Program-made: the position numbers and the translations under genes
From: Pinguiococcus pyrenoidosus
Taxonomy: Eukaryota; Sar; Pinguiophyceae; Pinguiochrysidales; Pinguiochrysidaceae
Assembly: GCA_019677205.1 (NCBI GenBank)
Contig: JAAMXY010004250.1
Span: 48,107-95,236 of the forward strand
Length of the DNA stretch: 47,130 bases
Direction of reading: 5' to 3'
Notes under the pieces: model-generated
What the model was told of the DNA's origin: nothing
Database searches by the model: none
Seen by the model: only the letters and a program-made list of their open reading frames with translations
Shown: piece by piece, positions 2,221 through 24,600 of the stretch
Position numbering within the stretch: the stretch's first letter is position 1
How the letters are laid out: the number at the start of each line of letters is the position of its first letter

Positions 2221-2862
2221 CGATTGGCCAATGATAGCTGCCCTCCTGCACGGGATACGAGGCTTCGCCAGGCAACTTCTCGGTCGCTCGTCCTCCTCCT
2301 GTCGGTGACGAGGAGCGCGGCCTGGCAAACCTTCAAGATAGACAGCCCGGTTGGTCCCGGAAGCCAGGGCTATCATTCGCGATGCTGTCGACATGATAGT
2401 GTGTGGGAGCCGTTTGCTGCAGTATAGAGGCCGACACCCCATCGGTGGTTCTCGACAGACGGAGGTTCCGTTGCAACTGCCGCTCATGCCTGCGCAGCTT
2501 GAATCCTCACGAGTCGGAAGTTGGTAGCTGTGTCGGCCCTCGGATTTTGTACGTCATTCAGCGTGGTGAGTGTTGCGTCCTTTTTGTCGATTCCTAGTGG
2601 ACCGAGATTGTATCAAGTCAACTAGATGAATGCGTGAAGCGAGGTTCTCCACACCAAGCAAAATGTTCACATGTGGAAGTTGTCAAACATCTCTCCAAGG
2701 TTCGCTTCCGCCATGGAGTAGTAGGCCGCGGATGCCGCGCTGTCTGCATCTCCGCCATTGTACACTGCGACCGCCCGGGCTACGTCGGCCGCGAACCTGT
2801 CGCAAGTCGGGTTTGCCAATCAGTCCTCGGTCGCGGGGTGCTCCGAGCGCATCCAGAACTCC
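2221..2862. other. Intergenic, convergent 3' ends
   Basis: This 642-bp stretch separates the stop of the ankyrin-DHHC gene from the stop of the TRAPPC2L gene on the other strand. Small open frames occur on both strands but none shows family motifs or a sensible splice structure. No RNA gene or repeat was recognised. It probably holds both 3' UTRs. Confidence 0.5.
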
Positions 2863-3322
2863 TCACCTCGGGGACTCTATCGGTTCACCCAGCTTCGAGA
2901 AGGGATTCATCACGTGTCTCTGGATCGCGGCGTGTATGGACCGCATCAGAGTGACAACCCCTGGGAAGGTTTCGTGAGACGCTGATGTACTGAACCAAAA
3001 GCGCCCGGATCTTCTCTTTCCGCCGGGTACCTTCTTCTGCGACGATTTCCGCGTCTTCTAGGACGGCGAGGATCTTCAGCTGACTATTGGTGAGATACGC
3101 GTATATCTGGAACTCCTCCATGAAGCACAGCAAGCCCAAGAACATGTCCGGCGTCTTGTTGCTGCCGCGGTTGCGCTCGTCCAGCACATCCAACGCGCTG
3201 TGACAGGTGAAATGGTACCGCAGCTCGGGCCCATCCTCAGCGCCCCCCGCCTCGCCTTGGAGGAAGCGTCTGAAGAACACCGGCTCGTTCCGGGGCCCGA
3301 TGATGCTCACGCAACGCAGCAT
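2863..3322 (-). CDS. TRAPPC2L: TRAPP complex subunit 2-like (TRAPPC2L, sedlin family)
   Basis: TRAPP complexes are Rab exchange factors that tether vesicles at the ER-Golgi and Golgi. The protein starts MLRCVSIIGPRNEPVFFRR and continues with YHFTCHSALDVLDER, MFLGLLCFMEEFQIYAYLTN and SQLKILAVL, the strand-helix pattern of the longin-like sedlin fold. Exon 1 is 3322-2981. Using a GT-AG intron at 2980-2920, exon 2 (2919-2863) adds RHVMNPFSKLGEPIESPR, which supplies the conserved family ending V-M-x-N-P-F. Without the splice the frame gives an unrelated tail. The total is 132 residues, close to the roughly 140 of animal TRAPPC2L. The ATG at 3322 was chosen because the family starts at this point; the open frame continues upstream to 3442 with low-complexity residues that look like 5' UTR. 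Confidence 0.86.
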
Positions 3323-3812
3323 GGTGGCTTTTGTGGCGCCGCCTTTCCCGCATCGTCCATCAATTCTGTGGCATAGTCGATGAATATCTTGATAAAGACT
3401 ATAAAAGTCTATGAAATATCTGTTCTCGTCCACCTGTCCCATATTGTGTGAAAATCATATCCGTGATATAGTATTTCATTGACTTCATCAGCAACGCTTT
3501 TTGCATTTCGCGGGACTCGGAAGCTGAAGTTTGGCGCAGTTGAACTGCAGGTCTGCGCACGCCTGGCGTAGCTGGTGTTGCGGAAGATCGGACTCGCTGT
3601 TGCCCAGCCGCCTGGTATTTGAGAGACGAATGGCTCGCGCGTCTCTTCGGCGGCTCTCCACCATGGCCCTTCTGATAAACGCCGCTTCGCTGCGGCTGAG
3701 ACCAAGAAGTCGCCCCTTCACGCGCCTCTTCATGGCCACCGAGAAGGTCGTTCATCTTCTTGAAGCCGTGATCTGCACATCACGATGCATTCACAAGCCA
3801 CCTTGGCCTTTC
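3323..3812. other. Divergent intergenic region between TRAPPC2L and LysRS
   Basis: About 490 bp lie between the two outward-facing starts. The 3360-3480 part is AT-rich and includes a short inverted repeat around TATAAAAG (agact/agtct, near 3397-3411). Open frames on the minus strand (for example 3488-3739, basic and helix-prone) have no recognisable family and I do not call them genes. Both promoters are expected here. Confidence 0.4.
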
Positions 3813-5780
<1,968 letters not shown>

Positions 5781-5922
5781 CATCGTGCAGGCGTCTTCCG
5801 ATTGCCCGCTGCCCGCTGGTCCGTCGCGGCAGCGTGTCCTTCCTCTAGCCATGGCAAACTGAAGCAAATTCTCTAGCAAATGCTTTAGCAAATTGACGCA
5901 ATTCCTTTGGTATCGAGCGATC

Positions 5923-7578
5923 CTATGGGAACCAGCAGATCGGAGCCGAGCGTGTCCGTTCTACGCTGGCTTTGTGTCCGAACAGCGTCCGGATGTTCTT
6001 CACGCGGTACTTGATCATTGTGGGTCTCTCCAGGCTCAGGCCCCACGCAATCACCCGCACGCCTTCCGGCAGGCCCATAGGGCGGAGCATCTCTGGTCGA
6101 AAGATGCCCGAGTTGCCGATCTCTGTCCACTTGCCCAAGTCGGGGTGGTATCCAAAGACTTCCATGCTCGGCTCCGTGTACGGATTGAAGGCAGGCTTGA
6201 AACGAAGCTCCGTGATGCCGATCTTGGCGAAGAAGGTCCGGATCGTCCCAATGAGGTCGCCTAGGGACAGGTCGTAGTCGGCAACGAGGCCTTCGACCTG
6301 ATGAAACTCGCAGAGATGCGTGGCGTCCATCGTCTCATTCCGGAAGACGCGATCGATGCTGAAATACTTCTTCGGCGAGAAGGTGCCTCCATTCGCGTCC
6401 ATCTCTCGTGCCAAGCGGTACAGCATCTGCGCTGATACGGCCGTCGTGTGAGTGCGCAGGAGGTTCTTGAAGGCCTCTTCCCGCTTGAAGTCATAGCCGT
6501 GGCCCACGGACCCGAATCCGCCCGTCTCGTGGATCTCCTTCACGCGCTCGTAGTAGTCCTCGGGCATCCGCACGCTGTGCACGGGATCCTTGATGAAAAA
6601 CGTGTCATGCGCATCTCGTGCCGGGTGGGATTGCGGCTGAAACAGCGCGTCAAAGTTCCAGAAGCTGGACTCGACCCACTTGTTCGTGGGCATCTCGTTG
6701 AAACCCATCTGCATCAAAATCTGCCGGAACTCGGCTCGCACTTTCAGCAGCGGATGGACGAAGCCTTGTGCCGGAATCACGGGGACGCTGTTCAGGTTGA
6801 AAGGCTTGAATTCCTCCGCCTGCCACTGCCCAGACTGCAGCATCTCGTAGGTGAGGTCTGCCGCCTTCTTCTTGCGGTCCAACGTGAACTCCGGCCCTTT
6901 CGTCACTTTCCAGCTCACCCTGCGGCCAGCTTGCACCAGCTGACGCTTCTTGAGGGTCTTGAGGTCGTTTCCGGCCGGCGCCCTCGTCTCCAGATTCCGA
7001 AGCATCTCGGCAACCTGGTCCCTGTCCGCCGGCACCTGTCCTGGGAAGTAGTTGCCACTGGCCTTGTCGTAGCGGACCCATTTGTTCTTGAGCGCTGCCC
7101 CCTTGGCGAATCGGAGCACGGCAGCGCCCAGCTGCTCCGCGAGAGCGGCTTCGCTGGTGCCATCTGGCGACACCAGGCCGACCAACTTGAATTCCGGTGT
7201 GCCCTCGGACGCATACTTGGCCCCCTCCTCGGTCAGCGTCAAAGTCGGCTTCTCCAGCCGTTCTCGCTCGATGAGGTTCTCGCCCTCCAGCGAGTTCAAA
7301 GCTCCCACCACCTCGTCGTGAACAACGCCGGTCTGTGCCAGGTGCGGCCGACCAGGATTGCGGCAATCATCGCGCGCAAGGTGAGCCTCTCCGTCGTCTG
7401 GACAAGGTCGCACGCTAGCCTACCTCCTGGGCGAACTCCCACGTGTCCTCGAGGACGCCGAAATCCTCCAACAGCTGCAACAACTGGGATCCAAGGTCTG
7501 CGCAGACGCAGAGAGCGGCGAAGCATCTAAGGACAGACCTGCGGACAGAGACGCGCGCTTTCCGGTACCTCTGCTCAT
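5923..7578 (-). CDS. FARSA: Phenylalanyl-tRNA synthetase alpha subunit, cytosolic
   Basis: This is the catalytic subunit of the heterotetrameric cytosolic PheRS. Three exons are inferred: 7578-7539, 7497-7424 and 7332-5923, separated by GT-AG introns of 41 and 91 bp. Together they give 507 residues, essentially the length of animal FARSA (508). The N-terminal winged-helix region (LGSQLLQLLEDFGVLED, VVGALNSLEGENLIE) precedes the catalytic core. The core shows MPTNKWVESSFWNFDALFQP, HPARDAHDTFFIKDP, NLLRTHTTAVSAQMLYRLA (motif 2 region), YFSIDRVFRNE and FNPYTEPSMEVFGYHP, and ends AWGLSLERPTMIKY (motif 3). The beta subunit is not in the window. The gene converges on the LysRS gene with 142 bp between stops. 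The first exon and its 41-bp intron rest on splice signals and frame only; the other exons are secure. Confidence 0.95.
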
Positions 7579-8123
7579 CGTCTCCAGCTACGTCGCGGGA
7601 AGTTTGAGTGCCCCGAGCTTCACGAAGATAATCTTCAGGTCGCTGTGCACAGTCTGGCGCGTAAGCCAACTCAACGGCCGTGAGCAGGATCCGTCAACTT
7701 GGGGCCTTTGCCGTCCGCGAATCTCCGCCGCCCGCGGTCAGCTGATTGCTTCTGTAGGACAGACGGATCGTGTTTTGCTGATTGGATATTGTTATGATGA
7801 GCGTACCGATGATTTGCTCCCATGCGCCAAGTTTGATTTCATTGGTGGATTGTGTTCTGTGATGGAATGATGTTATAATATTGCGTCATTGAGGGGATGT
7901 AACATCCGTTAGGAGCATTTTGTTCTTGCTGACGGCGAAATCCCCAAGAAGAGACAGCGAGAGACTCCTTCCCGTTGCTGCCTGGTCCCGAGCTCTGAAG
8001 GAGCGACGGGCAAGACATTGCAGCACATGGGAATGCCAAAGTCATAGCAAGTTGGCCAGGTGGCCTTGGAGAATCCAAGCGAAAGAGAGTTTGCTCCCTC
8101 GGCATGTTGAGAGAACTTTCCGC
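7579..8123. other. Divergent intergenic region upstream of the 7TM array
   Basis: The open frame of the first 7TM gene extends upstream to 7920, but that extension has no counterpart in the other three copies, so I treat it as 5' UTR. The 7780-7900 part is AT-rich. No RNA gene was recognised. Confidence 0.4.
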
Positions 8124-9560
8124 ATGTGTACGGACGACTACCTCACTGAGCATCCCTGCGACGAGCCCTACACAATTGGAGAGGACGGGCAGTGCTCAGT
8201 GCTGGTCGAGGATGCGCTGTGGGAGAATGGGCCGTCGCGCTTGGTGTTCTCCCTGCTAGTCGGGGCGTTGTCCCTGGCGTGCTTGGTGGTTCAGAGCCGT
8301 CGTCTGCGGATTCTGTGGAAAGAAGCAAGCCAGAGGCGCAGGAGGCCGATGACTTTCTGTCACTGGCTGTGGCTTCCTTCCACCCAGATGAACATTGCCA
8401 TTGCCTACCTCGCTGTGGTGCTGCTCATCCACAGCGTCGACTTCTTCGGCTACGGCGCGAGGCTGCCGTTGGTCGTGGCGATGATCGCCCTGGATCAGGC
8501 CACTTGCGCCCTCATTGCGATCCTCGTCCATGGACTGGTCGGCTGGCGAACGGCGGTAGTGGAAATGTCCAACCGACGCGTCGTCCACCGTCTCTTCGTC
8601 TTGTCATGGGTCCTCGTTGCCATCTGCTGCTTGGACTTGTCGCTGCTGACCTTCCTGGCCATCCACTTCCGGCCGGACGACGGCACCGTCGGCGTCATGA
8701 ACGGCTACGTGGACGCCGCGAAGCTCATGATCTTGTGCCTAGTCATCGTCGTTTGCCAGGTCTACGCAGTGGCATTCTACCTCAGAATGCGGACGCTCTT
8801 GGCGCGGGGAGCGAAACTGGTCACGCCAGCGCCGTCTGCGCTGACTGTGTCGCGTCGCGACGGGGTGAAGTTGAACGTCAGAAGCAGCATCGACTCGACG
8901 AGCCGGCTGCCCGATCCGGTGAGGATGCAAAAGGTGCAAGATGTGGCGGTTGTCCCCAGGCTGTCCGTCCGGACTTCGCTACCGGGCGGATCCAGGAAGT
9001 CGGCGGTCCGAGAACGTCGATCGCCCGTCGCTTCGCCTCACCATCACGAGGCGGACGCCAGGGTCTACACGCTCTACCAACTCGGCAAGTACGTGGCGGC
9101 GACCCTCTTCTTCGGGAGTCTGGGCCTCTTTCTGATGCTGTCGAGGACGGTGGTGCGATTCCAGACCTGCTGGGTGTGGTTGAAGACGCCAGAAACCTCG
9201 CAGTGGTACCACGAGGTGATCGTGGTCCAGCTGGCAGCGCTGATGGGCGCCATTGCGGCGAACACGAAGCGATCCTTCTCAAGCTCGACGCAGGCCAGCG
9301 ACCCAGCGTCGAGTGTGCAGAAGGGCGGAAAGTCTGCCGCGTCTCGGCGGTCGAAGACGTCTATCACGCGGAGCAAGCAGCTCACTCCCAAGGGTCGCAT
9401 CTCCGAGGGCGAGAGACGCACTGGGCAGAAGCCGAGTAGCGTGGTCGAGGCCTTGGAGAAATCCGAGACGTCTGGGAGGACCGTGAACCCGCCACCTCTA
9501 GAAACCATGAGAGAAGAAGTCAGTTCGCTCGACACAGGGATTGAGTCGCTGGTTGTGTGA
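8124..9560 (+). CDS. Seven-transmembrane protein, tandem array copy 1
   Basis: I do not recognise the family. The 478-residue product begins MCTDDYLTEHPCDEPYTIG, a short Cys-containing N-terminus shared by all four copies, which fixes the start at 8124 rather than at the earlier in-frame ATG (7920). Hydrophobic segments lie at about residues 40-57, 90-107, 114-138, 157-179, 199-220, 322-340 and 363-381. Basic residues in loops 1-2 (RRLRILW), 3-4 (GWRTAVVEMSNRR) and 5-6 predict the N-terminus outside and the C-terminus inside. The 5-6 loop is long (about 100 residues), variable and rich in Ser, Arg and Lys, as is the C-tail (about 95 residues), which ends with an acidic ETMREEVSSLDTG stretch. 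This is receptor-like topology, but no GPCR family motif (DRY, NPxxY, retinal Lys) was seen. There are no introns, unlike most neighbours. Confidence 0.85.
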   Translation: MCTDDYLTEHPCDEPYTIGEDGQCSVLVEDALWENGPSRLVFSLLVGALSLACLVVQSRRLRILWKEASQRRRRPMTFCHWLWLPSTQMNIAIAYLAVVLLIHSVDFFGYGARLPLVVAMIALDQATCALIAILVHGLVGWRTAVVEMSNRRVVHRLFVLSWVLVAICCLDLSLLTFLAIHFRPDDGTVGVMNGYVDAAKLMILCLVIVVCQVYAVAFYLRMRTLLARGAKLVTPAPSALTVSRRDGVKLNVRSSIDSTSRLPDPVRMQKVQDVAVVPRLSVRTSLPGGSRKSAVRERRSPVASPHHHEADARVYTLYQLGKYVAATLFFGSLGLFLMLSRTVVRFQTCWVWLKTPETSQWYHEVIVVQLAALMGAIAANTKRSFSSSTQASDPASSVQKGGKSAASRRSKTSITRSKQLTPKGRISEGERRTGQKPSSVVEALEKSETSGRTVNPPPLETMREEVSSLDTGIESLVV

Positions 9561-10233
9561 CTGCCACCGTGAGTCTAGACGCAGTTGATCCGCGGTCAGG
9601 GCGTGGGTGAAGCGGCTTGAGAGGGAAGAAGTATTGGGAAGTAGATGCCGCGAAAGGCAAACAAGTTCAACTCCGATTTCGTGCGCGGCCACTGCTCCGG
9701 ACTTGAAATGGCATGCAACGAATCGCAGAACTCCTAGATGCCCCATGCCATTCCCCGGCATCCATTCAACACGAGTGATGGACGATGACGAAATGAAACG
9801 CGTTCCTGCTTGAGACCGCGTCCCTAAGAAAAGAAAGGGTGTTGATATAGGAAACCTCGACGATCGTGATCGAGAGAACTTGCCAGGGAAACCCTGACTA
9901 ACGAAGGGAACACGCATCTCGTTCCGGACTGCGTCCTTCTTCTTATGATGCGTTTGAGAATGATCACAAGAATACTGGGTTGCGCCAACGCATCCACCCT
10001 ATTGGCTCCCTTTGGCATCTCGCCGTTTCCCCCTGGCCTTCCTATGGCTGCATAGTAGGGTCTTTTCTACCGAAGGCATCATCGGTTGAGGCGTTTTCTG
10101 GTGGGGCTTGTGCGGCCCACGCCGGGGCAACGCGGCGCACTCCTCGCGATGGTGCTCCTTTGGCACCACGGGTGATGCAACATCTGCATCGGGAAGGGGT
10201 GCCGGCGAGGACTGATTGCCTTCTTGAGGTGGA
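9561..10233. other. Spacer between array copies 1 and 2
   Basis: The 673-bp spacer has no supported gene. A short hairpin (CAGGG-AAA-CCCTG) lies near 9889-9901. The spacer shows no obvious similarity by eye to the other array spacers, so duplication units may be limited to the coding part or be old. Confidence 0.4.
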
Positions 10234-11787
10234 ATGTGCACGGACGACTACCTGACGGAGCATCCATGCGACGAGCCGTACACCATCGGCGACGACGGCC
10301 TCTGCTCCATGCTCGTCGAGGACGCGCTGTGGGAGCATGGTCCTTCTCGCTTGGTCTTCTCCGTCTTTGTTGGCGTGGTGTCTCTGGCCTGCCTGCTGAC
10401 GCAGCTCCGGCGTCTGAGGATTCTCTGGCTGGAGGCCACGCAGCGGGCGAATCGGGAGCGATCCTTCGCGCAGTGGCTGCTGGTGCCCTCCACGCAGATG
10501 AACATCTTCCTCACGTACCTCTCCATCCTGCTGCTGATCCACAGCGTGGACATTTTCGGCTATGGTGGACGCCTCCACTTCGTGTTCGCGATGCTGGTGA
10601 TGGATCAGGCGACCTTTGCGGTCGTCGCGGTGGTAGTTCACGGCTTGGCTGGCTGGTGGAGGACAGCCTTGAGAATCTGTCATGCGCATATCGAGCGGTG
10701 GCTCCTCATCCTGTCGTGGAGCACGGTGCTGCTGTGCGGTGTTGATCTTTCTCTGATGAGCTTCCTCGGCATCCATATGCGACCCGTGGACGGAACGCTG
10801 GGGGTCATCAACGGCTTCATCGACGCGGCCAAGCTCTTTATTCTGGCCGTCGTCATCATTTCATGCCAAATCTTCGTCGTTGCGGTCTTCGTGCACATGC
10901 AGAAACTTCTCCGGGAGGGCAACGCTGTCATGACGACTTCCACGACAGCCGGTCGCTCGCCGACGAGTAGGCGAGATGGAAATGCCACCGATGCCCCTCG
11001 AGGCAATGACGCGTCGATGAAGAGCGCATACAGAGGCATGCAGCGTTCGATGTGTAGCAATAAGGTTTACGTGGAGGCGACCATTGCGAGCTCTGATAAG
11101 ATTGCCCCCGCACCCCGAGGTTCCACGCCGCGCCGGATCAACGTCCTAAGAAGTCCCACTGCGGCACGGGCGTCGCTGGTTTCCGGCAGTGAAGGCGATG
11201 CCGGCCGAGGTACCGCTGACAGAGCTCGACGCTCGTCAATTGTGGCGCCGGCGCTGGAGGACAGGCCGACCGCATCCTTCATGCCGGTGGCCACGAAGAA
11301 CTACACGCTTTACCAGCTCGGCAAGCACATCGCCGTCATCCTCGTCTTCGGCACTCTTGGACTTATGCTCATCATGGCGCGTATCGTGGTACGATTGGAG
11401 AACTGCTGGATCTGGCCGCAGACGCCTGAGAAGTATCAGTGGTACAACGAGATTGTCGCGGTGCAACTGGGTTCATTGGTCTTCGGCATACAGGCGAACA
11501 CGAAGAAGTCCTTCAAGGCTTCTCGCCGGACCAGACTGTCCGTATCTAGCGCAAGGGTCGCGCAGCGGAGACTCGCAACGGACAACGGGTTAGTCCCACC
11601 TCCTTCAAGTTGCATGCCTGCGTCGTTGGCAGGCGATACGGAGCGGCGTGTCGCACCAGCACGAACGAGCTCTCCGGCGTCGCTGCCTGGTTTCGCCTGT
11701 CAAGATCGCGGCGCACGTATGGACGCGATGAGGGCGTTGCGAGAAGAATCGACGGCGCCTTTGAGGGTAGAATCTATGGACTTTTAG
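10234..11787 (+). CDS. Seven-transmembrane protein, tandem array copy 2
   Basis: This 517-residue paralogue of the 8124-9560 gene differs from it at about 13 of the first 71 positions by eye. It keeps CDEPYTIGDDG, ALWEHGPSRLVFS, HSVDIFGYGGR, MDQATFA, RPVDGTLGVINGFIDAAKL, YTLYQLGKHIAVIL, and the CWIWPQTPEKYQWYNEIVAVQL segment between and into membrane segments 6 and 7. The cytoplasmic 5-6 loop is the longest of the four (about 135 residues) and is rich in Arg, Ser and Thr with RRSS-type basophilic kinase sites. The tail after ANTKKSF is likewise basic and Ser-rich. One exon. The function is not recognised; the long variable cytoplasmic loops suggest signalling or scaffolding (inference). Confidence 0.85.
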   Translation: MCTDDYLTEHPCDEPYTIGDDGLCSMLVEDALWEHGPSRLVFSVFVGVVSLACLLTQLRRLRILWLEATQRANRERSFAQWLLVPSTQMNIFLTYLSILLLIHSVDIFGYGGRLHFVFAMLVMDQATFAVVAVVVHGLAGWWRTALRICHAHIERWLLILSWSTVLLCGVDLSLMSFLGIHMRPVDGTLGVINGFIDAAKLFILAVVIISCQIFVVAVFVHMQKLLREGNAVMTTSTTAGRSPTSRRDGNATDAPRGNDASMKSAYRGMQRSMCSNKVYVEATIASSDKIAPAPRGSTPRRINVLRSPTAARASLVSGSEGDAGRGTADRARRSSIVAPALEDRPTASFMPVATKNYTLYQLGKHIAVILVFGTLGLMLIMARIVVRLENCWIWPQTPEKYQWYNEIVAVQLGSLVFGIQANTKKSFKASRRTRLSVSSARVAQRRLATDNGLVPPPSSCMPASLAGDTERRVAPARTSSPASLPGFACQDRGARMDAMRALREESTAPLRVESMDF

Positions 11788-12051
11788 ACTAGAGAATAGT
11801 GTCATCCTGGATGCGTATCAACGGTGCGAAGGCAAAGTACCACGGAGACCAGTAGAGGATGGGGGGAAAAGGCGGGGAAGGAAGACGCAAAGAAAGAAGG
11901 AGGGTGCCGATGTCGACGGAGCAAAGAAAACAAATGTGTGTATCATAACATAAACAACACGTTGTAATGGGGAGAAGAGGGGCTCGTCTGTCACGCGTTG
12001 TTCGGGGGAGGTGTGAGTGAGGGTCGTCTTTGCGGGCGTTGCGGGATGGAA

Positions 12052-12111
12052 AGATAGAAACACGAGGGATAGAAACAAAAGGGATAGAAACAAGAGGGAT
12101 AGAAACAAGAG
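12052..12111 (+). repeat. 15-bp tandem repeat, four copies
   Basis: Units of the form GGATAGAAACAAGAG follow one another with one or two changes each, then run into two copies of GGACAACA. The strand is strongly purine-biased. Confidence 0.8.
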
Positions 12112-12196
12112 GACAACAGGACAACAGGAAGGAAAAGCTCAAAACAAGACGGTCCGTGCCTCTGGCGCATTCCATTCCAGGATTCGTTGACAGCGA

Positions 12197-12531
12197 CATG
12201 GGGCTTGGAGGTCGAAACCTTGTTTGGGATCAAAGCGCGCAAGCTGCAGATCTGGTGGGCCAGAGATTTAGGAAATATGGGAGCTTGTCCAATAAGCTTC
12301 TTGAAAAAATTAGAAATATTTTGAAATTTATCCAATCAGCACAAGATATTACGTCACATCCATTCTATCAAGGGAGTCCTTACTTCCGCTATTTGGGTCT
12401 CATTGGGTGGAGTTCTCCTCCCTGATCAGCTATGTCATCAACTGCTCTGAGCCCAATTCCACCTTTATGCGGACACATCGGGAGCTGAAATGGCATGGTC
12501 GCAAACAAGGTTTCGACCTCCAAGCATGGGG
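12197..12531. mobile_element. MITE-like element with 23-bp perfect terminal inverted repeats and 7-bp target duplication
   Basis: Bases 12204-12226 start CTTGGAGGTCGAAACC and are the exact reverse complement of 12502-12524, which end GGTTTCGACCTCCAAG. The two arms are followed inward by a few more pairable bases. Immediately outside each arm is the same heptamer CATGGGG (12197-12203 and 12525-12531), as expected for a target-site duplication. The 321-bp interior has an AT-rich core (about 12275-12370) and no coding capacity, so the element would be non-autonomous. Size, inverted ends and flanking direct repeats fit a miniature inverted-repeat transposable element. Superfamily is not assigned. 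No second copy was noticed in this window. Confidence 0.78.
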
Positions 12532-12702
12532 GGTGTTGAACAGGGTCCACTCGGTTTGTGAGACCAGTTACGGAAGTGGCGTTGCTGGGCATTGCATTCC
12601 TGGTGCGCCAACGAGTCTGCAGATGCAGACGCGATGCTCTGTGCGAGGTTGCGTGGCCGTGTTCAGAACAGCAGTCCTCCGTAGCAACGGGACTGGCGCG
12701 GC

Positions 12703-14181
12703 ATGTGCACGGACAAGTATTTAACGGAGCATCCGTGCGACGTGCCGTATACCATCGGCGACGACGGCCTGTGCTCTCGGATTATCGAGGAGGCGCTGTG
12801 GGAGCATGGTCCGTCTCGCTTGCTGTTCTCGCTCCTGGTTGGCGGCGTGTCGCTCGTGTGCTTGCTGATCCAGATGCGCCGGCTGCGCGTCCTCTGGCAC
12901 GAAGCCAAGCAGAGGCCCAACAAGCCTGAGAGCTTCTTCCAATGGACGCTTCTGCCGTCGTCGCAGTTGAACCTCTGCATCTTGTACCTGGCCGTGGTGC
13001 TCATGGTCCACAGTACCGACCTGTACGGCTACGGAGGGAGGATCCCCTTTGTCGTCATGATGGTTCTCCTGGACCAGCCGACCTTCGCAACGCTGACAAT
13101 GCTGATCAGTGGCATTCTCGGGTGGCGCATGACCGTGGTGGGGATCTCGGAGCGACGGACTGCGCATTGGCTCTCCGCGCTGTCCTGGTCGTTCGTGGTC
13201 CTGTGCTTCTCAAACAGCGTTTTGATGCCCGTGCTCGAAGCGCAGCTCCGCCCCGAGGACGGTGCGCTCGGAGTCTTGAACGGCTGGTGCACGTCAACCA
13301 AGCTCGTCGTCACCTTTCTGGTGTTGCTGCTGTGCCAAGTGTACGGTGTCTATCTATACTGTCATCTGAAGAAGATCATCGCCAAGAGCAATGCGCTCGT
13401 GAGTTCCATGCGGAAGCTGCCATCCCACCTACGCGCCAGCAGCAAGCACTACTCAAAAGGCGCCGCAGAATCGTCAGCAGCACACCTGAAGACTTCCGAG
13501 TCGGAAGGTGCGCCTGTTCGGAGATTGGTGGTCAGACCGCTGGCTGGCTCAGCGGCGCACTCGTCTGAAGAGATGCGAGATGCACCAAGCAGCGCGCAAA
13601 GCCCGCACGAGGCGCAGACGTCCTTCGAGAAGCGTGCTGCCTGGCCGGCATCGCAAAGAAGCCACGGGCGGCATGCGAACCGACTCACTGATCTGGACGC
13701 TACAGTGCTTCAGCTACGCAAGCACGTGCTCATCCTCGTTGGCCTTGGCCTCATCGGCCAGCTGCTGCTCGTAGACTTGATTTTGAACGCAAGTCGCGAG
13801 TGCTGGTGGTGGTTCCCAACGCCCAAACGGCATCGCTGGTACGACGAGATAGTTTGCTTTCAGCTCGCATGCCTAGTTGTCTCGATTGCCAGCAACTCCA
13901 AGAAGTCGTACCAGGTCTTCACTGGGAGAACGAAGCCGTGTTCCGGGCGCAACCGGGTGAATCCAAGTGGGAAGACGAGGCAACTCGGGTTGTCAAACGG
14001 CTTGCGTGATCCGGTGGCTAGCGTCTCGGAGGATCGTCCACACCTAACGGACCTTCTGCGAAACCAGAAGTCGCCAGCAACCCTTTCGTCGAAGCTTGAG
14101 AAGCTGAGGTCGCCAGATGAGACGGAGCCCGCGAAGCGTCTGGTGCTCGAGTCCATAGACGACGAAGCTGAGCCAGGGTGA
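12703..14181 (+). CDS. Seven-transmembrane protein, tandem array copy 3
   Basis: This 492-residue paralogue is the most divergent of the four in the first membrane half (MCTDKYLTEHPCDVPYTIG, HSTDLYGYGGRIPFV). It keeps ALWEHGPSRLLFSLLVGG, RRLRVLWHEAKQR, GWRMTVVGISERR, RPEDGALGVLNGW and CWWWFPTPKRHRWYDEIVCFQL. The hydrophobic profile again gives seven segments with positive loops inside. The 5-6 loop (about 110 residues) is hydrophilic and variable, and there is no intron. The 3' flank carries an 8-bp hairpin (14305-14328). The family is not recognised and is described by comparison with its three neighbours. Confidence 0.85.
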   Translation: MCTDKYLTEHPCDVPYTIGDDGLCSRIIEEALWEHGPSRLLFSLLVGGVSLVCLLIQMRRLRVLWHEAKQRPNKPESFFQWTLLPSSQLNLCILYLAVVLMVHSTDLYGYGGRIPFVVMMVLLDQPTFATLTMLISGILGWRMTVVGISERRTAHWLSALSWSFVVLCFSNSVLMPVLEAQLRPEDGALGVLNGWCTSTKLVVTFLVLLLCQVYGVYLYCHLKKIIAKSNALVSSMRKLPSHLRASSKHYSKGAAESSAAHLKTSESEGAPVRRLVVRPLAGSAAHSSEEMRDAPSSAQSPHEAQTSFEKRAAWPASQRSHGRHANRLTDLDATVLQLRKHVLILVGLGLIGQLLLVDLILNASRECWWWFPTPKRHRWYDEIVCFQLACLVVSIASNSKKSYQVFTGRTKPCSGRNRVNPSGKTRQLGLSNGLRDPVASVSEDRPHLTDLLRNQKSPATLSSKLEKLRSPDETEPAKRLVLESIDDEAEPG

Positions 14182-15146
14182 GACATGCGGCCGAGATTCG
14201 CTCCGCTGATTGCAACGAGCTTCTGTAAGAAGCGTGTGGAGATGTTGAGCATCGAGGGGAAAAGCAAAAGCTCGAGTCCTTAGGGAAGGACGTTCAAAAG
14301 CTTCAGACTGGTCCACTATCACCAGTCTTGATCATTTGGCTCCATTTCACAAACACTACGGAAGCTCTCGTCCGCGATTCTGCGAATCCACTCTTGACTG
14401 GCATAGTTCCGACACACTTTTGGGTCTTCTGCCTCTTGTCCTCGCGTGACCGACGGCCAAAGAAACACTCGCGTGACCGCTTTTGCCGCCTTCGCCGGTT
14501 CGTTCAAGCGAGCTTGGCCTTCAAGTCGGCAAGCCCCAAAGCTTCCCACTTTGGCGCGTGTTTGTTCACCACTGCCTCGACGCGCAATCAGGCAGCTTGA
14601 TCATCTAGTGCGTGCGCTCTCCGCTGAGTCGTAGCTTGTGTGGTGTGTGTGTGGCGGCATCGGCAGCGGCAGCGGCAGAGGTCTTGCGCTCTCATTTCCA
14701 TCGTTCCCGGCATCATAACAAGAAATCGATATGGTCGACGAAAAAATAGGAGGCCATTCATGCCAGACCACGTCGTCCTCAAACGCAGTCCATCGAGGCC
14801 ACAAGTCGGTTCCTCCGCTTCCTCCGGTTCCTCCGCTTCCTCCGCCACGACATCAAACCCACATCAAACCCACACCATACAGATGAGATCATGATGGGCT
14901 TGGCACATTCCGTTCTTCCGGTCGACTGGAGATTCTTGTTTGCATGATTCGGCGAATGGAAAGAAGGAAACAGCCAATCCAGGGAAGAGAAACGCCGCGG
15001 CGGTTGGAAGGCGTCTCCTTTGTGGCTCATTGCACGAAAATTGGGCGAAGCACGTGGCTCGCCCGATGCTCCTGATGCGTTGCGCCCAGGCTCTCAGCGG
15101 TGCCAGCTAGTAGGGAGGGGCCTCGAGGGGCCTCAGCCGGAGCGGA
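14182..15146. other. Spacer between array copies 3 and 4, with simple repeats
   Basis: No gene is supported in this 965-bp stretch. It holds a perfect 8-bp stem with an 8-base loop at 14305-14328 (agactggt/accagtct), a GT-rich run plus GGCAGC repeats at about 14637-14678, and a TCCGCTTCC/TCCGGTTCC repeat at about 14808-14850 followed by two CATCAAACCCA copies. Confidence 0.5.
14637..14850. repeat. Cluster of short simple repeats
   Basis: The cluster contains (GT)n at about 14637-14653, GGCAGC repeats at about 14660-14678, and 9-bp TCCGCTTCC-type repeats at about 14808-14850, with unique sequence in between. Confidence 0.6.
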
Positions 15147-16637
15147 ATGTGCACAGACGACTACCTGGAGGAGCACCCGTGCGACGAGCCGTACATCATC
15201 GGCGACGACGGCCAGTGCTCCAAGCTCACGGAGGATGCGCTATGGGAGCACGGTCCGTCCCGCTTGGTGTTCTCGCTCTTTGTCGGCATCGTGTCGTTCC
15301 TCTGCATGGTGGTGCAGTCGCGACGGCTGCGGATCCTTTGGCTAGAAGCCATGCAGAGGCCGAAGAAGCCGGAGAGCTTCTTCAAGTGGCTGCTGTTGCC
15401 GTCGACGCAGGGGAATGCTTGCGTGGTCTACCTCGCTGCGGTGCTGGTGCTGCACAGCGTCGACATCTTCGGCTACGGAGGCCGCATTCCGTTTGCCGCC
15501 GCGATGGTCATCGTGGACCAGGCAACCTTCGCCCTCATGGCCATCATGATCCACGGCATCATTGGCTGGCGCATGACCGTGGTGGAGATCTCGAACCGAC
15601 AGGTCGCGGATCGGCTCTTTTGGCTGTCATGGGTCCTCGTGGTGATCTGCTTCCTGAGTCTCTCCGTCGTGACAGTCTTTGAGGTTCATCTTCGGCCCGG
15701 TGATGGGAAGGTTGGCGTCATGAACGGACCGTGCAGCTCCGCCAAGTTGATCGTCATCTGCGCAATCCTACTGGTGTGCCAGGTCTATGGAGTGAAGTCC
15801 TACTGGCGCATGAAGACAATCCTGTTGAAGAGCACCGGCATGAGCACCTCCGTCTCCGCGCTGCCGTCGCAGGCGCGCCTCAACGTCAAGTCTACGGAAG
15901 GTGCCGGTTGGAGATCGCCGGCCATCAAGTCCCAGAAGGGAAAGGCGACGAGTCTTCCCGCGAAGAGGATTTTGGTGGAGCCTGTGGCCGCGTCGATGAG
16001 CAGCACTGCCTCTAGCGTGCACACCCAAGACACGTGCCACACCAAGGATGTCACGGCGGAGATTTCGACGACATCCTCTAGGCTTGCGGCTTTTTTACCG
16101 ATGCAGCTGAGCAGAAAAAGCTCATCGTCGGCAAAGCAAGACGCTGTGGACGCCTCAATCCTGCAGATGCGCAAGCACATCTTTGCGATTCTCCTGTGTG
16201 GCGGCCTTGGCCAGCTTTTCATGCTTTCACGGGCAATCGCAAGGCTTCAGACCTGCTGGTGGTGGCTCACGCCGCCCGAACGACACCACTGGTACGACCC
16301 GGTTGTTTCGCTACAAGTCATTTCTCTTGTGGCTAGTGTGATCGCCACATCGAAGCGATCCTATGGATTCCTGGGAGGCTTCAAAGGACGCAGCTCTGCG
16401 GAACGTAGTAGGACGCAGCAGAAAAACGCGTCCAAGAAATCGAGGTCGTCGAATCGAAACCACGATCTTGTCGCGGTGGCGCCAGAGCCCGAGCCGCGAC
16501 GGGTCTCAAGCACGCAAGAGACAAGCTCTGTTGCGGCCGTCTGGGGCGATTCGGACTTCCGGGTCTCCTCAGATGGAGGCGCCCAGCCAAAGTTCCAAAA
16601 GCTGCAGACCATGAAGGAGGAACCGTCGACACCGTAA
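15147..16637 (+). CDS. Seven-transmembrane protein, tandem array copy 4
   Basis: This 496-residue paralogue begins MCTDDYLEEHPCDEPYIIG, then ALWEHGPSRLVFSLFVGI, RRLRILWLEAMQR, LHSVDIFGYGGRIPFAAAM, GWRMTVVEISNRQ, RPGDGKVGVMNGPCSSAKL, LQMRKHIFAIL and CWWWLTPPERHHWYDPVVSLQV. Seven hydrophobic segments follow the shared positive-inside pattern. The cytoplasmic 5-6 loop contains SRKSSSS, a likely phosphorylation cluster, and the tail ends QTMKEEPSTP, resembling the ETMREE end of copy 1. It is a single exon and the last copy; the next gene is unrelated and on the other strand, 209 bp away. The function is not recognised. Confidence 0.85.
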   Translation: MCTDDYLEEHPCDEPYIIGDDGQCSKLTEDALWEHGPSRLVFSLFVGIVSFLCMVVQSRRLRILWLEAMQRPKKPESFFKWLLLPSTQGNACVVYLAAVLVLHSVDIFGYGGRIPFAAAMVIVDQATFALMAIMIHGIIGWRMTVVEISNRQVADRLFWLSWVLVVICFLSLSVVTVFEVHLRPGDGKVGVMNGPCSSAKLIVICAILLVCQVYGVKSYWRMKTILLKSTGMSTSVSALPSQARLNVKSTEGAGWRSPAIKSQKGKATSLPAKRILVEPVAASMSSTASSVHTQDTCHTKDVTAEISTTSSRLAAFLPMQLSRKSSSSAKQDAVDASILQMRKHIFAILLCGGLGQLFMLSRAIARLQTCWWWLTPPERHHWYDPVVSLQVISLVASVIATSKRSYGFLGGFKGRSSAERSRTQQKNASKKSRSSNRNHDLVAVAPEPEPRRVSSTQETSSVAAVWGDSDFRVSSDGGAQPKFQKLQTMKEEPSTP

Positions 16638-17677: not shown

Positions 17678-18575
17678 ATGTCTTCAGCGGCAGCAGAAGA
17701 GACGCCGAATGGCGCAGGCGATCGGAGCCATGCGCACGAGCACCGGCACGGCAATGGAAGCCACGAGCACGCCCATGACCACGAGCACGGGCACTCCCAC
17801 GAGCATCTCGAGCATCCGGGGGTCTTCGACGGCCGGGAACGCGCCACTCCCAGGAGCTTCGAGTGAGTGCTCCGTGGCGTGCTGAGCATCCATCTGCTCC
17901 GAGAGAAAGCTAAGCATGAACTCTGGCGTCGCTAGGCAACGGGCCTTCACGGTCGGCATCGGAGGCCCTGTAGGCAGCGGCAAGACCGCGCTCATGCTCC
18001 GCCTCTGCGAGAGCCTTCGAGACGAGCTGAGCGTGGTGGCCGTCACGAACGACATTTTCACCCGAGAGGACGCGGAGTTCCTCACGAAGAATGGGGCGCT
18101 GCCCAAAGAGCGGATCTACGCGATCGAGACGGGCGGATGCCCGCACGCGGCCATCCGCGACGACGTCACGTCCAACCTCCTTGCGGCGGAAGAGGCCACG
18201 ATCCGGCACGGCGCCGATCTGGTGCTGCTCGAGTCGGGAGGCGATAACCTCGCGGCGAACTTCAGCAGGGAGCTCGCCGACTACACCATCTATGTCATCG
18301 ACGTGGCTGGCGGGGACAAGGTTCCCCGGAAAGGCGGCCCGGGGATCACGCAGAGCGACCTGCTCATCGTGAACAAGACCGATCTGGCGGAGGCCGTAGG
18401 AGCAAGCGTAGAGGTCATGGAGAGAGACGCCAAGATCATGCGCGGCGAGGGACCAACTGTCTTCGCTCAGGTGAAGCATGGCGGAGGGGTCGACGAAGTT
18501 GTCCAGCACATCAAAACGGCGCTGTCGGCGCAGCGTGGTCCGCAGAAGAAGAAGACCAAGACGGCAGATGCCTAG
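17678..18575 (+). CDS. ureG: Urease accessory GTPase UreG
   Basis: UreG is the GTPase that delivers nickel to urease with UreD, UreF and UreH-type partners. Exon 1 (17678-17862) encodes a His-rich metal-binding N-terminus ([20 protein letters not shown] and on), as in plant UreG. A 73-bp GT-AG intron (17863-17935) splits the codon for Glu in [13 protein letters not shown]. Exon 2 carries the P-loop GGPVGSGKT (residues 71-79), [16 protein letters not shown], the metal-site ETGGCPH (Cys-Pro-His), ESGGDNLAA and the guanine-specificity motif NKTD. The total is 274 residues, ending in a Lys-rich tail ([10 protein letters not shown]). Urease itself and the other accessory proteins are not in this window. 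Confidence 0.97.
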
Positions 18576-18681: not shown

Positions 18682-21600
18682 CTACCGCGTCTTTCGTCTT
18701 TTCTGCCCATTCGTTCCTTGCTTCTCGCCTGACTTTCGCCTCTTTGGGCGGCTTGACTCCGGCTTTGATACAGGCTTCGATCTAGATCTAGGCGTAGATC
18801 CCGCATCTGCGCCTCGCCATCTTCTCTCCTTCTCAAGCCCCAAGTGATCCAATTGGTTCTTGAACCAGAGCTCTGCGAAGCCAGTGCTCTCCTCCGTCGC
18901 GACCAGTCTTCGGCCTTCGACAGTTGAGTCACTGAGCAGCAGGGGGCACCATCCTGCGCACAGAACAAGGCCATCTGGCGCTGCCTGCACTCTTCGCTCA
19001 GGGAGTAGATCTGCCTTGAACTGCTCCACGAGATCTGCCGAAGCCCCAGCCTTCTTCTCCGGCTCGGAACTGAGGATCAGGGCCGGGCCGTAGCCGCACA
19101 GCTGTGGAGCTGCAGAGCTCAGAAGCGTCGCAAGCCTATGCTTCTCGTCGGCGTTTGCTAAGCGCTTGAAAGCCGGGGCCAGAGCGGCAATGGCAATGGC
19201 CACAATGCCAGGACCGCTCAAGGAGTTTTGTCGGTCTTGCTCAAGTCCTGCGCCTGGACTCTGTGAAAACACTGTCAGAACTCGCTGAAGATCCTCTTTC
19301 ACGACGCCCTCAAGTCTGCTGAAGTCCGCCTCTTCGCCACCACGCACGCCTACCAGCAGGGTATGAGCACCAAGGAACAACAAGCACAGCAAGTCCTCGA
19401 CATTGTCGCAGATCGGCTTTGCTGCCTGCCTCATCGGCAGGAACGCCTTCGGCGGCATCATCGCCCGCAGGACACGCCTGCATGTCGCCACCTGACAGCT
19501 CGAAAAGAAATCATCCAGCAGCTCCGAAAACTTGCCGGCCTCTCCACTCCGGTCTTCGTCGAGTTCGTCGACGTCCCTTAGCGCAGCAAGAAGAAGACCG
19601 TTCTCGGCGAGCGCTAGACTCTCTGTTAAAGCTCTCAGAGCTTCACGCAAGAGCTTCACCTCGCGATCCATCGATGTGGAGGCAAGTCCTTTCATCCCCG
19701 CGAGGCGCGACGAAGCGTGCGATCCGAGTTTGGAGACGACATGAGCAAGACCGACACACGTTCGGCCTTGGACGATCTCCGCGATTGCAGAAGCCCCCTT
19801 CACTCGCGTCGTTGTAAAAAGGAGTCTTCTGGTGAGATGACGCAAAAGCTCCACGAGCGCAGCGTGCAACGCGATGCTCTTCGGATTCTGCAGCATCACG
19901 AGATGACCTCGAATGATCGGCAGAACCCCGACGCGCCCGACCGCATCGGTCAGTCCGGCATCAAAGGTTGTGTACAAAGTGAGGAAGTCGCAGACGACGG
20001 CAGCTTGGCGGGCGTCCTCTGCGTGAAACCCCAGTGATCCTTCAAGGAAGGTCAGCGCGAACTCCACTACGTGCTTCCGCTCCAGCAGCGCAACGCTGTC
20101 TGCGCCAGTGTTCCCTGGGGGTTGATTCAGTTGCGCACGCAGACCACAGCAAATCGTCTCGAGAAGCCAGGTACGAGCGTGCAAGGCAGTCGACGCTTCA
20201 TCGCCGGCAGAGCTCACCACGTCCGTGCCCTGCAGCACGCTCAAGAAACCCGGGAAGAAGTCTTGACGCAAGTCCCAGCGCCCCAAACGGCTCCGCTCTC
20301 TGTCGTCGGTGAAGACACAGCGGCTCATGAGCATACGATTCAGTGCACGATACGCAGGATGGGCAGCATCCGATAGCGCCATGGAAACCCGAGCTAGGGT
20401 TAGCGCAGCTAGAGGCGAGAAGCTGGGTGCCTCGGTGGAGTTCTCCGCATTCTCCACTAGGCATTGCTGGACTGCCTCGTTCACCGTGTGCACAAGGAGG
20501 AGCTGCTGCTGGCGGTCGTGAAACAGCGCATCTTCGGCCGCCGAGACACCAGCGAGCAGTTGTTCCATCTCGTTCAAGGCCACCTGCGTGCACTTTCGAA
20601 CTCGATCATCCACGCTGGACAACGCCGCCAGGCACAGGGCAGTACATCCCCTTTCCGACAGTTCTCGGGCCGGCAGCCTGTGCGCCTCCTCCGGCGGGCA
20701 TCGTATCATCCTCAGAAGCAGAGGGATCACGAAGGACGGGTCCAGTGGTGCCTCGTCTTTCCCAGCCTCGTCATCGTCGTCGGCTTCCCTCGCGGCATCT
20801 GACCTTTCCTTGGCACCGCCATGGAGGCTGCCAAAATCCCGAAGCGTTGCCTTCACGCGTGTAAGGCGCACTTCCCTCGCAAACCACCGAGGCAGATGCA
20901 GGTCTGCACCCGTTTGGGAAGCCCCCGCAGTCCCCACGCCTCCCGAGATCCTCAGGAGTGCCCTGTCCACTGCTCGCGTCGATCCCCTGTAGCCTGCGAG
21001 GCATCTGAGAACAACTTTGCGAAGATCGCGAGAATGAGATGCTGCTGACATCTCCGCAGATGCATCGCCTCTGTCCTCCAGAAGAACCTCGAGCAAATCT
21101 ATGGCAAGGGTGCGGAAGCGCTTGGCATTCGCATCCTCTAGCGCTTTCGTTGCCAGGAGATGCTGCAACAGCTTCTTAGTAGCTTCTGCGTCGACCTGCG
21201 CAAGCCTCTTTCGCTGAAGCCTCAGAATCTTGATATATGCTGACAATGCAGTTGCAAGGCTATCAAGATCGGCAGCTTGGAGCACGCGGAAGCTGGCCGT
21301 GCTCGAAATGCCAGTGAGCGCTTCAGAATCAGCGGCAGGCACGTCGATTTGCCTTGCCATCCCCAGATCGCCCAGTGCCGAAATGCACTCCCAAGCGGCA
21401 TCGGTGGAAACGGAGACATCGACTGCGCGTCGGAGCAGACCAAGCCCCTTGGACATCAAGGTCTCAAGAGCAGCCCGGTGACGGCCTTGTGAATCCATGC
21501 GGAGCCGAGGGACGAAGAGCGTGAGCACATCCGAGAGTACCTGCCACTGGATTCCACTGAAGTCGTCGGTTTGCAGACTGGACAAGACGGCCATTGCTTC

Positions 21601-24600
21601 TGAGACGCTCTGCAGCGCAAGCTCGGGATAGAATCTCAGCTGGCAAGCGAATGCCACCAGCATCGGCTCCCACGCGCTCAACGACAGCCCGCCTGGCTCA
21701 GCTTCGCAGAGAGATCCACGTGACGAAGGGGCGTCGGCATCCGCTCCCGCCGAGAGCCCAGCATCCGTTCCCGCCGAATGCCCAGCATCTCCACCAGCGG
21801 CAAGCGCCCTACAGGCATCGCCTATCGCGTCCCTCGCCCACTTTTCAATGGCCCGCTGAAAGCACAGCGCGAAGCCCTTCGCGTCGGTTGCTTCCAGTAC
21901 GAGGCTCCTCGCGCACTCCAAGAGAAGAGACATGGCAAGCGTGAAACGCTTGGCCATCAATTTCCCGCCTTGCATTTCTGGGATTAGGATCAACAGGTCC
22001 TTGAAGATAGACACTGCAGGCCCACCGGGATACCTAGCAAGCACCGCGAGGATTGCTTTGCTGGCGAGCAGCTCGCCGTCGTCAAGCGAGAACGGTATGT
22101 CTTCCCGCCCTCTCTTCATTCGATCCCAAAGGCGAATTGCGATGCTCGCGGCATCGCTGTCTAAACACACAAAGTCCTCCAAGCCAGCTTCCAGTAGCAT
22201 CGTCGCAAGTGCAGCTCGCGTCCGATCGCCCGTCGAGCTGCTGAACCAGGTCAGGATTGCCTTCAGCACGGCAGCTTTGTTCGTCAATGGCTCTGCACGA
22301 AAGACGGTCGACAAGACGTCCATAGATGCCGGGCGCTGACGGCAGCGTGATGCGAAGGCGTCCAGTCCTTGCGCGATCACATCAAGCCTCTCTGGTTTTT
22401 CATTTCGCAGCGCGTCCAGGAACGTCTTGACGAGTGACTCGTCGGACATCAGGCTACTCAACTTCTCTCCGAACTGCAGCTTTGGAAGCACGCTCTCCGG
22501 CAGTTGAGAAAGCTTTTGCACAAACGGATCCGCAAGACGCTTCAGCATGTTCATGGACCCGTCGGGAAGCCGGCGGAAAGCATCTTGGCGCAGCAGCCAG
22601 CTGAGTACGTTCTTCGCCTGTCTCATGGTGGGTTCGGCGATCTCAGCAGCTTTTCCGTCGCCGCAATCGGCAACCGACTGCGCGACGACCCCAGAGGATA
22701 GAAACACTCCGAGGCATTGAACAAAGCCTGACGCTCCCGCTTGATCGTCTTGGTCGCTCTCGCCCTGCTGCACGGCGAAGTCTAGCGCCGACTTCAGAGT
22801 TGCTTGAAGACAGTCAAAAAGACAGGACGCCGCGGACGCGTACGACGCGGCAAACCCGCCAGGGGCTTCACGAGCAATCCAGTAGTGCACCTGCAAGCAC
22901 GCGCAAATCTGCTCGATCGTCTCGTCTATCCCGGATTGGTCATCCGAAGAGACTTGGCCTGCACAAGACTGTAAGAGCCGGGCGATGCCCGAATGATCAG
23001 AGGGGGCCGTCGCTTGACCAGCGGCGATCGACAGAGTTCGAATCACCGTGGCCTGGTACACAAGTAATGCAGTTGGCAAAAGCGACAGCACACTCCTGAT
23101 ATTTCGAGCATCCTTCCGGGTCAGCTCGGCAGACATCAACGCCGAGTCTCCCGCAGCGGCCATCTCAAGGGCACGGATTACGGTAGCATTTTCCAGGAGG
23201 CTTGGCTGTACTCGCCCAATCGCCGTGAATACGATGGGCCCTGGCGGTAGTTTCCGCTTCCGGTGTGCTCGGAGAAGCTCAGGAAGGAGCATCTGGTCCG
23301 CGCACAGCACTTGCCATGGTCCCACGCCAAGTTCCTGTGGAGAATCGTCAGCAGCACCGGACGGAGCACTCAGCACCTCCGCGCAATGCCTCGCAGCTTC
23401 TCGAGCGCCCGCACCTGCGAGCTCTTCGAGGCTCAAGAGGTAGCTTCGAAGAATGTGCTCGGCGTTCGCTCTCGTGTCCACGCCCGCGACCTCATTGGGA
23501 GCATCCCCGGAACACCGCGGCACAAGGTCTATACGCCAGTCCTTCGCGACGGATCCCAAGATGTCACGAGCTTGCGATTGCCGTGCGCGAGATCCCGTTT
23601 GGGCGAGCAACGCTCTCGCTGCGACGGTGATAAGCGTCCTAAGCTCTTGCTTCGCCGCACCGCCCATTGCGGCGCCGTTGCCGCTTCGGTACTTGCGTTG
23701 CTGGTCCTTGGTCGACAGGACGACGATCATTGCCGGCAGCAGTGGACTCGAGTCCAGCATCATGATCTTGCTCAAGGCTCGGCAAAAAAGGCGAGCCGCG
23801 AACTTCCCAGCAATCTCGTTCTGAAGACTGTCCAGAGCGGACCTCATCAACTGGCGGGTGCGCTGGGGCAAGTGCATTCCGTGGGCGACAAGCACCTCTG
23901 CAGGACTCACGCCCATCACGGCCATTGAGGCAGCGACTACCAAGTGGCACGGTCTATCAAGGCGAGTCGGCTTGGACGAGACGAGCGGCCAGGCCTCTAA
24001 CAAGGCCGTCGCTGCTAAACTGACTACCGACGGGTCGACAGCGATCAGCTTCATCAGAGCAGCGAGGACGCCCGATCGACTGCCGGTCTCGTATTGGACT
24101 GCAAGGGCTTCTCGCACAAAAGCCATCTGCTGCCGAAGTCGCAATCGCTGGACGAGTCGCCGGAGCTGCTGATCTTCGCTTTGGTTCTGCTTCGCCCTGG
24201 GCACGGAGCGAACGAAGTCCATCACCAGCCTCGATTCCGCCGACTCCTCTGAATGAAGCGCTTCCGCAAGCACCTCGTTTGCGAAATCCTTCAAACGAGG
24301 CGCACTGCTGCCATCGCCGAGGAACTGAAGAAGCGAGTCAAGTGGCGTTGCTGCCTCGGTCGTGCTTTCCGCAACCACAGTGATCGATTGCGTCCAGTTG
24401 AGGCGAAGCTCGCTCTCCTTGCTCCGACCAGACCGTGTGGACGATCCAAGCAAATCCTCAAGAGGTCGACACACGAGATCTCTCAACAGGTGGATGTACT
24501 CCTCCTTGTCTGAGGACCGCCATAGATGGAACGAGCCCAACAGCTTGAGCACGTCAAACTTGGCTCGTACAAACGACTCCGACAGAAGCGTGGCATACTT

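Follow-up and report, generated by a model that had tools for sequence, protein, structure and literature searches.

Four diatoms are reported to carry two to five class C-like G-protein-coupled receptor (GPCR) candidates each (PMC3727952), and expression of a single GPCR gene shifts Phaeodactylum to a surface-colonising form (PMC7452957). GPCR-PIPK and the oomycete GPCR-bigram proteins are the subjects of PMC5784254 and PMC6033456. In choanoflagellates, GPRch2 and other orphan families of seven-transmembrane (7TM) receptors were defined by clustering and predicted structure (PMC12716839). Here, we analysed a window of 47,130 nucleotides from the marine alga Pinguiococcus pyrenoidosus (contig JAAMXY010004250.1, positions 48,107 to 95,236), in which a tandem array of four 7TM receptor-like genes had been noted. 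The array belongs to a larger family in this genome, termed the Pinguiococcus family, and we consider it reasonably likely that its products are GPCR-like receptors, probably lineage-specific, oriented N-out/C-in, with cysteines and loops that are conserved on the extracellular side and a third intracellular loop (ICL3) and tail that evolve fast and are predicted to be disordered. As with the choanoflagellate families, clustering and predicted structure define the present proteins as putative orphan 7TM receptors, and GPRch2, compared by description, likewise lacks an extra domain and possesses an ICL3 that is unusually large. Unlike the present family, GPRch2 was detected beyond holozoans only in green algae, according to that survey. 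The array consists of the following genes.

8124..9560, + strand: copy 1, 7TM receptor-like gene, 478 aa, uninterrupted ATG-to-stop open reading frame (ORF)
10234..11787, + strand: copy 2, 7TM receptor-like gene, 517 aa, uninterrupted ATG-to-stop ORF, matched by the MMETSP transcript protein P0001
12703..14181, + strand: copy 3, 7TM receptor-like gene, 492 aa, uninterrupted ATG-to-stop ORF
15147..16637, + strand: copy 4, 7TM receptor-like gene, 496 aa, uninterrupted ATG-to-stop ORF, the modelled copy

As the initial annotation stated, the four genes are consecutive, lie on the same strand, and are homologous; they are separated by 673, 915, and 965 bases. With copy 4 as the query, the other three copies were matched at E values of 3e-129 to 2e-102, far beyond chance, and the identities to copy 1 in the alignment were 48% (copy 2), 37% (copy 3), and 45% (copy 4). 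The shared motifs quoted for the array were present in the copies, with one deviation: copy 3 has HSTDLYGYG in place of HSxDxFGYG. P0001 matched copy 2 end to end (517/517 residues, 99.2%), which supports the limits and the expression of this gene; among the four array genes, the expression evidence from transcript proteins is limited to copy 2.

The genome assembly (23.7 Mb, 768 contigs) was searched repeatedly, each search starting from a member already found, and at least 20 family genes were identified: four in the window, two on contig C375, four on C460, two on C24, and one each on C604, C183, C451, C640, C365, C32, C724, and C246. Searching twice with queries from the most distant group gave known members only, and a weak match on C56, which covered 49 loop 3 residues (E 0.054), was not counted as a member. 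The genes were assigned to group A (window and C375), group B (C460, C604, and C183), and group C (the other eight genes). Profile comparison of the A+B alignment (13 rows, P0001 included) with the group C alignment (8 rows) gave a probability of 98.8% and an E value of 1.2e-16 over 212 columns. In a tree of the region from the N-terminus to the fifth transmembrane segment (TM5; 238 columns, 20 rows, 200 bootstrap trees), group C was split from A+B with support of 100/100. Support was 87/100 for group A and 94/98 for the window four (92% of the 200 bootstrap trees), neither being starred, and group B was not recovered as a clade, with group A falling among its members. The grouping of the window four agrees with their proposed origin by local duplication, and the many copies that had been named as a sign of a receptor family are present in this one genome.

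All six group A genes are single ORFs. In all six group B genes a GT lies just within TM7, the frame ends soon after it, and the hydrophobic segment resumes past a downstream AG, as read by eye. The array genes were thus rightly described as intronless, but this is not a trait of the family, given the apparent TM7 intron in six relatives. In three of the eight group C genes (C32, C724, and C246) the frame is broken around ICL3. The EukProt P. pyrenoidosus protein P0002 matched C365 in three pieces (97.3, 98.8, and 100%), and these pieces change frame around ICL3; published gene models of the family may therefore be wrong. The identity values place the assembly in this species or a very near one (Ochrophyta, Pinguiophyceae).

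Hydropathy analysis indicated seven hydrophobic segments in three of the four window copies and six in copy 2, in which TM7 fell below the threshold. Lys and Arg abound in loops 1, 3, and 5 and in the tail of the window copies, and the N-terminus of 39 residues is acidic (1-3 Lys/Arg against 8-11 Asp/Glu), so that the positive-inside charge counts predict an outside N-terminus and an inside C-terminus in all four. Together with the AlphaFold2 model of copy 4, which contains seven long helices, these results agree with the topology proposed earlier. In that model, short strands occur at aa 191-193 in the second extracellular loop (ECL2) and at aa 371-373 in ECL3, and the following regions of copy 4 were delimited (pLDDT, predicted local distance difference test).

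15147..15260, + strand: acidic Cys-bearing N-terminus, aa 1-38, predicted extracellular, YxxExPCDxP...C, pLDDT 49-68
15819..16148, + strand: long basic Ser/Thr-rich ICL3, aa 225-334, predicted cytoplasmic, pLDDT below 50 at aa 238-324
16233..16298, + strand: ECL3 with the CW motif, aa 363-384, from the AlphaFold2 model
16362..16634, + strand: fast-diverging C-terminal tail, aa 406-496, predicted cytoplasmic, mostly low pLDDT

Among the four copies, mean pairwise identity reached 0.83 for the N-terminus and 0.39-0.69 for the helices; for ECL1, ECL2, and ECL3 it was 0.70, 0.57, and 0.43. On the cytoplasmic side it was 0.56 in ICL1 and 0.39 in ICL2, nothing unusual for these short loops, and it dropped to 0.20 in ICL3 and 0.19 in the tail. 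The claim that the loop between TM5 and TM6 and the tail diverge fast while the outer and membrane parts are conserved was therefore upheld.

Conserved positions were counted as alignment columns identical in at least 80% of the rows, with loop limits taken from the copy 4 model; the initiator Met was excluded, and columns with a letter in fewer than 14 of the 20 rows were not counted, which left out TM7 and the tail. Eighteen of the 20 conserved columns lie in the N-terminus or in ECL1-3, and two elsewhere (L61 and Q88 of copy 4). Among columns with 9-13 rows, W at aa 141 (12/12, absent from group C) and P at aa 279 in ICL3 (9/10) were the sole ones to reach 80%; hence no TM7 column does. Conservation within the helices may be underestimated, because the groups cannot be aligned with certainty in TM6-TM7. 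In copy 4 numbering, C12 and C24 occur in 20/20 rows and C370 in all 17 rows that extend to ECL3, and an additional N-terminal cysteine, close to position 2, falls into two columns of the alignment, with 12 rows in one and 8 in the other. Judged from this pattern, a disulfide joining the N-terminus to ECL3 is likely.

AlphaFold2 models of two distant members, one of them copy 4, placed the seven helices in the arrangement of GPCRs. When the two models were compared with the Protein Data Bank (PDB) by Foldseek, 49 and 50 of the best 50 matches listed (of 942 and 1006, respectively) were named receptors of the GPCR kind, and the four PDB listings, of 50 rows apiece, contained no entry named as another 7TM fold. 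Against a GPCR-like reading, none of the Foldseek E values against the PDB passed 0.001, and the best VIA-align Z scores (15.4 and 15.7) were barely above the level that helical models reach through common arrangement. The GPCR-fold match suggested as a check was therefore obtained in the composition of the listings but not in a significant E value. The choanoflagellate survey required E < 1e-9 for candidates judged by structure (PMC12716839), and the present E values fall short of this bar, which was set for AlphaFold databases.

Compared with class A GPCRs (PF00001), the family is alike in the order and packing of the helices in the models, the short N-terminus, the lack of an extra Pfam domain, and the predicted orientation. 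It differs in having no PF00001 match above the cut-off, in being conserved on the outside, and in lacking conserved E/DRY, NPxxY, TM6 CWxP, and the TM3-ECL2 disulfide. By regular-expression search of the 20 rows, NPxxY was found in none (TM7 is present in 11), [DE]R[YFWHC] in two (copy 4, within ECL3, and copy 2, after TM3), and CWxP in one, C365, where it is located in TM7 (TM6 is present in 17); no conserved Cys was seen atop TM3 or in ECL2 in these rows. The absence of GPCR class motifs noted before thus holds for class A motifs, none of which is conserved. Class C GPCRs (PF00003) are likewise predicted 7TM receptors of ochrophytes, present in diatoms and in this genome, but all 20 members lack a PF00003 match and a large ligand-binding domain, and none of the 13 places scored in the own-genome PF00003 search was on a contig of the family.

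The four window copies were too diverged for estimating the ratio of nonsynonymous to synonymous substitution rates (dN/dS), so three closer pairs were used, given here in the order C24 pair, C375 pair, and C24b-C365. The ratios were 0.43, 0.28, and 0.43 from the N-terminus to TM5; 6.49, 0.55, and 1.33 in ICL3; 1.32, 0.47, and 0.77 in TM6-TM7; and 0.44, 0.80, and 0.93 in the tail. The value of 6.49 rests on 51 codons with very few synonymous changes, and we take the ICL3 ratios to indicate a faster-evolving loop rather than positive selection. The proposed contrast between loop and membrane parts was seen as far as ICL3 exceeded the region up to TM5, but the contrast in rate is not simply one of loop and membrane, because TM6-TM7 was raised as well and the tail values were as given. 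The tandem C375 pair (2789-4039 and 4639-5949, locus L009) showed mosaic DNA identity, in which blocks of 95-100% stand next to blocks of 65-87%: 98-100% in codons 1-60, 80-83% in codons 61-140 (about TM2-TM3), 95-100% in codons 141-220, and 65-68% in codons 241-300 (ICL3). The upstream flanks of the pair had no significant similarity, just an 11-base match (E 0.20). Patchy gene conversion would be the simplest cause of this mosaic.

Relatives outside this genome were sought by three family-alignment searches of 5.77 billion proteins, in each of which 7,992-7,998 candidates were scored. Only P0001 (twice) and P0002 were returned, both near-identical to copies in this genome. Distant relatives may be missed, since each search scored only about 8,000 candidates, and the lack of homologues elsewhere is no proof of lineage restriction, as the searches recovered counterparts of just two of the 20 known genes. 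A profile search of sequences of solved structures yielded no meaningful match (a cationic amino acid transporter ranked first, at E 0.18), and scanning viral contigs with the family alignment gave two pattern matches and no relative. In a Foldseek search of viral models, the best match (E 2.1e-3) was an uncharacterised Solumvirus protein, followed by GPCR-labelled proteins of giant viruses and herpes viruses and, at weaker E values, by non-GPCR proteins. Among the literature matches listed for the Pinguiococcus genome and Pinguiophyceae, no title or opening of an abstract concerned the family.

In Pfam scans of all 20 members (three incomplete), with 13 alignment rows scanned a second time, no family was above the cut-off, so that the earlier description "no recognised family" holds for Pfam. 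The matches below the cut-off with the lowest E values were 7tm_1 (PF00001) in C460d only (17.4 bits against 30.5, E 0.0032), DUF4401 in one other member (E 0.0047), and Bac_rhodopsin in C640 (16.2 bits against 24.6, E 0.0077); membership through these was rejected, as they are weak and inconsistent across members. The scan is incompletely sensitive: PF06454 went unreported for C622, a protein of this genome that scored 48.9 bits (cut-off 25) in the genome search. As Pfam scans can miss, we also relied on own-genome family searches, and those with PF06454, PF00003, and PF00001 returned no locus of the 20-gene family. The PF00001 search scored one place, below the cut-off and outside the family loci. 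This is a separate 7TM-like ORF of 504 aa (L056:1318-2832), which scored 24.7 bits with 7tm_1 and by eye has DKY at a DRY-like place.

The likeness to GPCRs might come merely from a shared seven-helix bundle, the proteins being transporters, enzymes, or scaffolds of the SWEET, PAQR, ceramidase, or TOM1 kind. We regard this as unlikely: the PDB listings named no other 7TM fold among the matches listed, no member had a Pfam match above the cut-off, and the conserved residues lie mostly in predicted extracellular loops and not within helices. Kinship with THH1/TOM1/GPR137 (PF06454), which also have seven helices and are present in this genome, had been suspected from helix patterns. No PF06454 match was found in 20/20 members by the scan that also passed over C622, and hhalign comparison of the family profile with C622 aligned 11 columns with a probability of 0.2%; this leaves the kinship unsupported rather than rejected, the comparison being a weak test because the TOM1-like side is a single sequence. 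The THH1/TOM1-like frames of the genome are C622 (L035:1848-2969) and C59 (L036:1124-1690), both over the PF06454 cut-off in the genome search only.

Ligand-gated ion channels of the insect odorant and gustatory receptor-like (GRL) kind have seven helices with the N-terminus inside, and the family shares with them a length of 400-500 aa and intracellular loops longer than the extracellular ones; GRL proteins are moreover known in unicellular eukaryotes (PMC7746228). Nevertheless, such an identity is very improbable, as the charge distribution predicts an outside N-terminus, no insect receptor structure was among the PDB matches listed, and the GRL motif of TM7, (T/S)Yhhhhh(Q/K/E)(F/L/M), described as diagnostic but not definitive (PMC7746228), was in 0/20 rows, 11 of which include TM7. 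Least probable of all, in our estimate, is a retinal-binding photoreceptor of the rhodopsin type with light as the cue. The seven helices, the algal host, one opsin among the best 50 matches listed for the second model, the sub-threshold Bac_rhodopsin match of C640, and a lysine within TM7 in four of the five C451-group relatives that reach TM7 would fit it. However, no rhodopsin family of Pfam was over the cut-off, TM7 is free of lysine up to its cytoplasmic end in 6/6 genes (the window copies and the C375 pair), and C640 lacks a lysine at the place of that in the C451 group; a Schiff-base lysine is therefore no feature of the family. In C365, the C24 pair, and C451, all of group C, the TM7 lysine stands right after a proline, and the window copies are without it.

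For the favoured GPCR-like receptor, several parts of the required signalling machinery are present in the cell, since genes for G-alpha, RGS proteins, and class C GPCRs occur in the genome. G-alpha exceeded the Pfam cut-off at five loci: the matches on C468, C304, and C620 are strong and stop-free, and the best matches on C75 and C254 contain stops, so that these two have introns or are broken genes. All 16 RGS matches were over the cut-off. On C514 (4959-6779), four RGS domain matches lie in tandem inside one 895-aa open frame. The class C (7tm_3) matches are distributed as three each on C44 and C91, two each on C216 and C155, and others on C576, C500, and C454. The G-alpha and RGS genes permit, but do not show, G-protein coupling of the Pinguiococcus family.

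We propose that the acidic Cys-bearing N-terminus, ECL1 (DxxG), ECL2 (PxDxxxGV), and ECL3 (CW) together make up a conserved lid on the extracellular side of the helix bundle, which disulfides between the N-terminal cysteines and that of ECL3 probably hold in place. Binding of an external cue on or under this lid would shift the helices, and the cytoplasmic face would then act on heterotrimeric G proteins, while ICL3 and the tail, which are predicted to be disordered and are rich in Ser, Lys, and Arg, would serve regulation and output. The many copies and the GPCRs in the fold listings speak for the receptor or sensor family of the initial annotation; the receptor function itself follows by inference.

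Downstream of the array lie UreG (17916-18575), which has a full cobW domain, and an ORF of 2447 aa (18682-26025) that contains a NopRA1 domain. Both are uninterrupted, so the statement that most neighbours have introns was not borne out here, and the contrast with the array is weak. Elsewhere in the window, an ORF at 41575-43065 has a TerD domain.

The predicted GPCR shape, together with the lack of a match to any family signature tested, suggests that these proteins probably represent a new kind of cell-surface sensor. A lineage-specific GPCR class that is built as the opposite of odorant receptors, with one common input and many outputs, can be imagined, although we hold this to be quite unlikely. 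In such a class the extracellular lid, fixed across 20 paralogues, would tune all of them to a single cue or to close relatives of it. If true, ICL3 and the tail would evolve freely, giving separate coupling or regulation to each copy; the C375 pair fits this partly, with two near-identical blocks and a divergent ICL3, but codons 61-140 also differ. Environment-sensing receptors of single-celled algae are little known, and the diatom papers (PMC3727952 and PMC7452957) treat few GPCRs each. That a genome of 23.7 Mb encodes at least 20 proteins with a predicted GPCR shape, none recognised by Pfam, suggests that sequence profiles undercount the GPCRs of protists, and the conserved outside and variable inside of these proteins raise the question of a shared sensor with a changing output in one receptor family.

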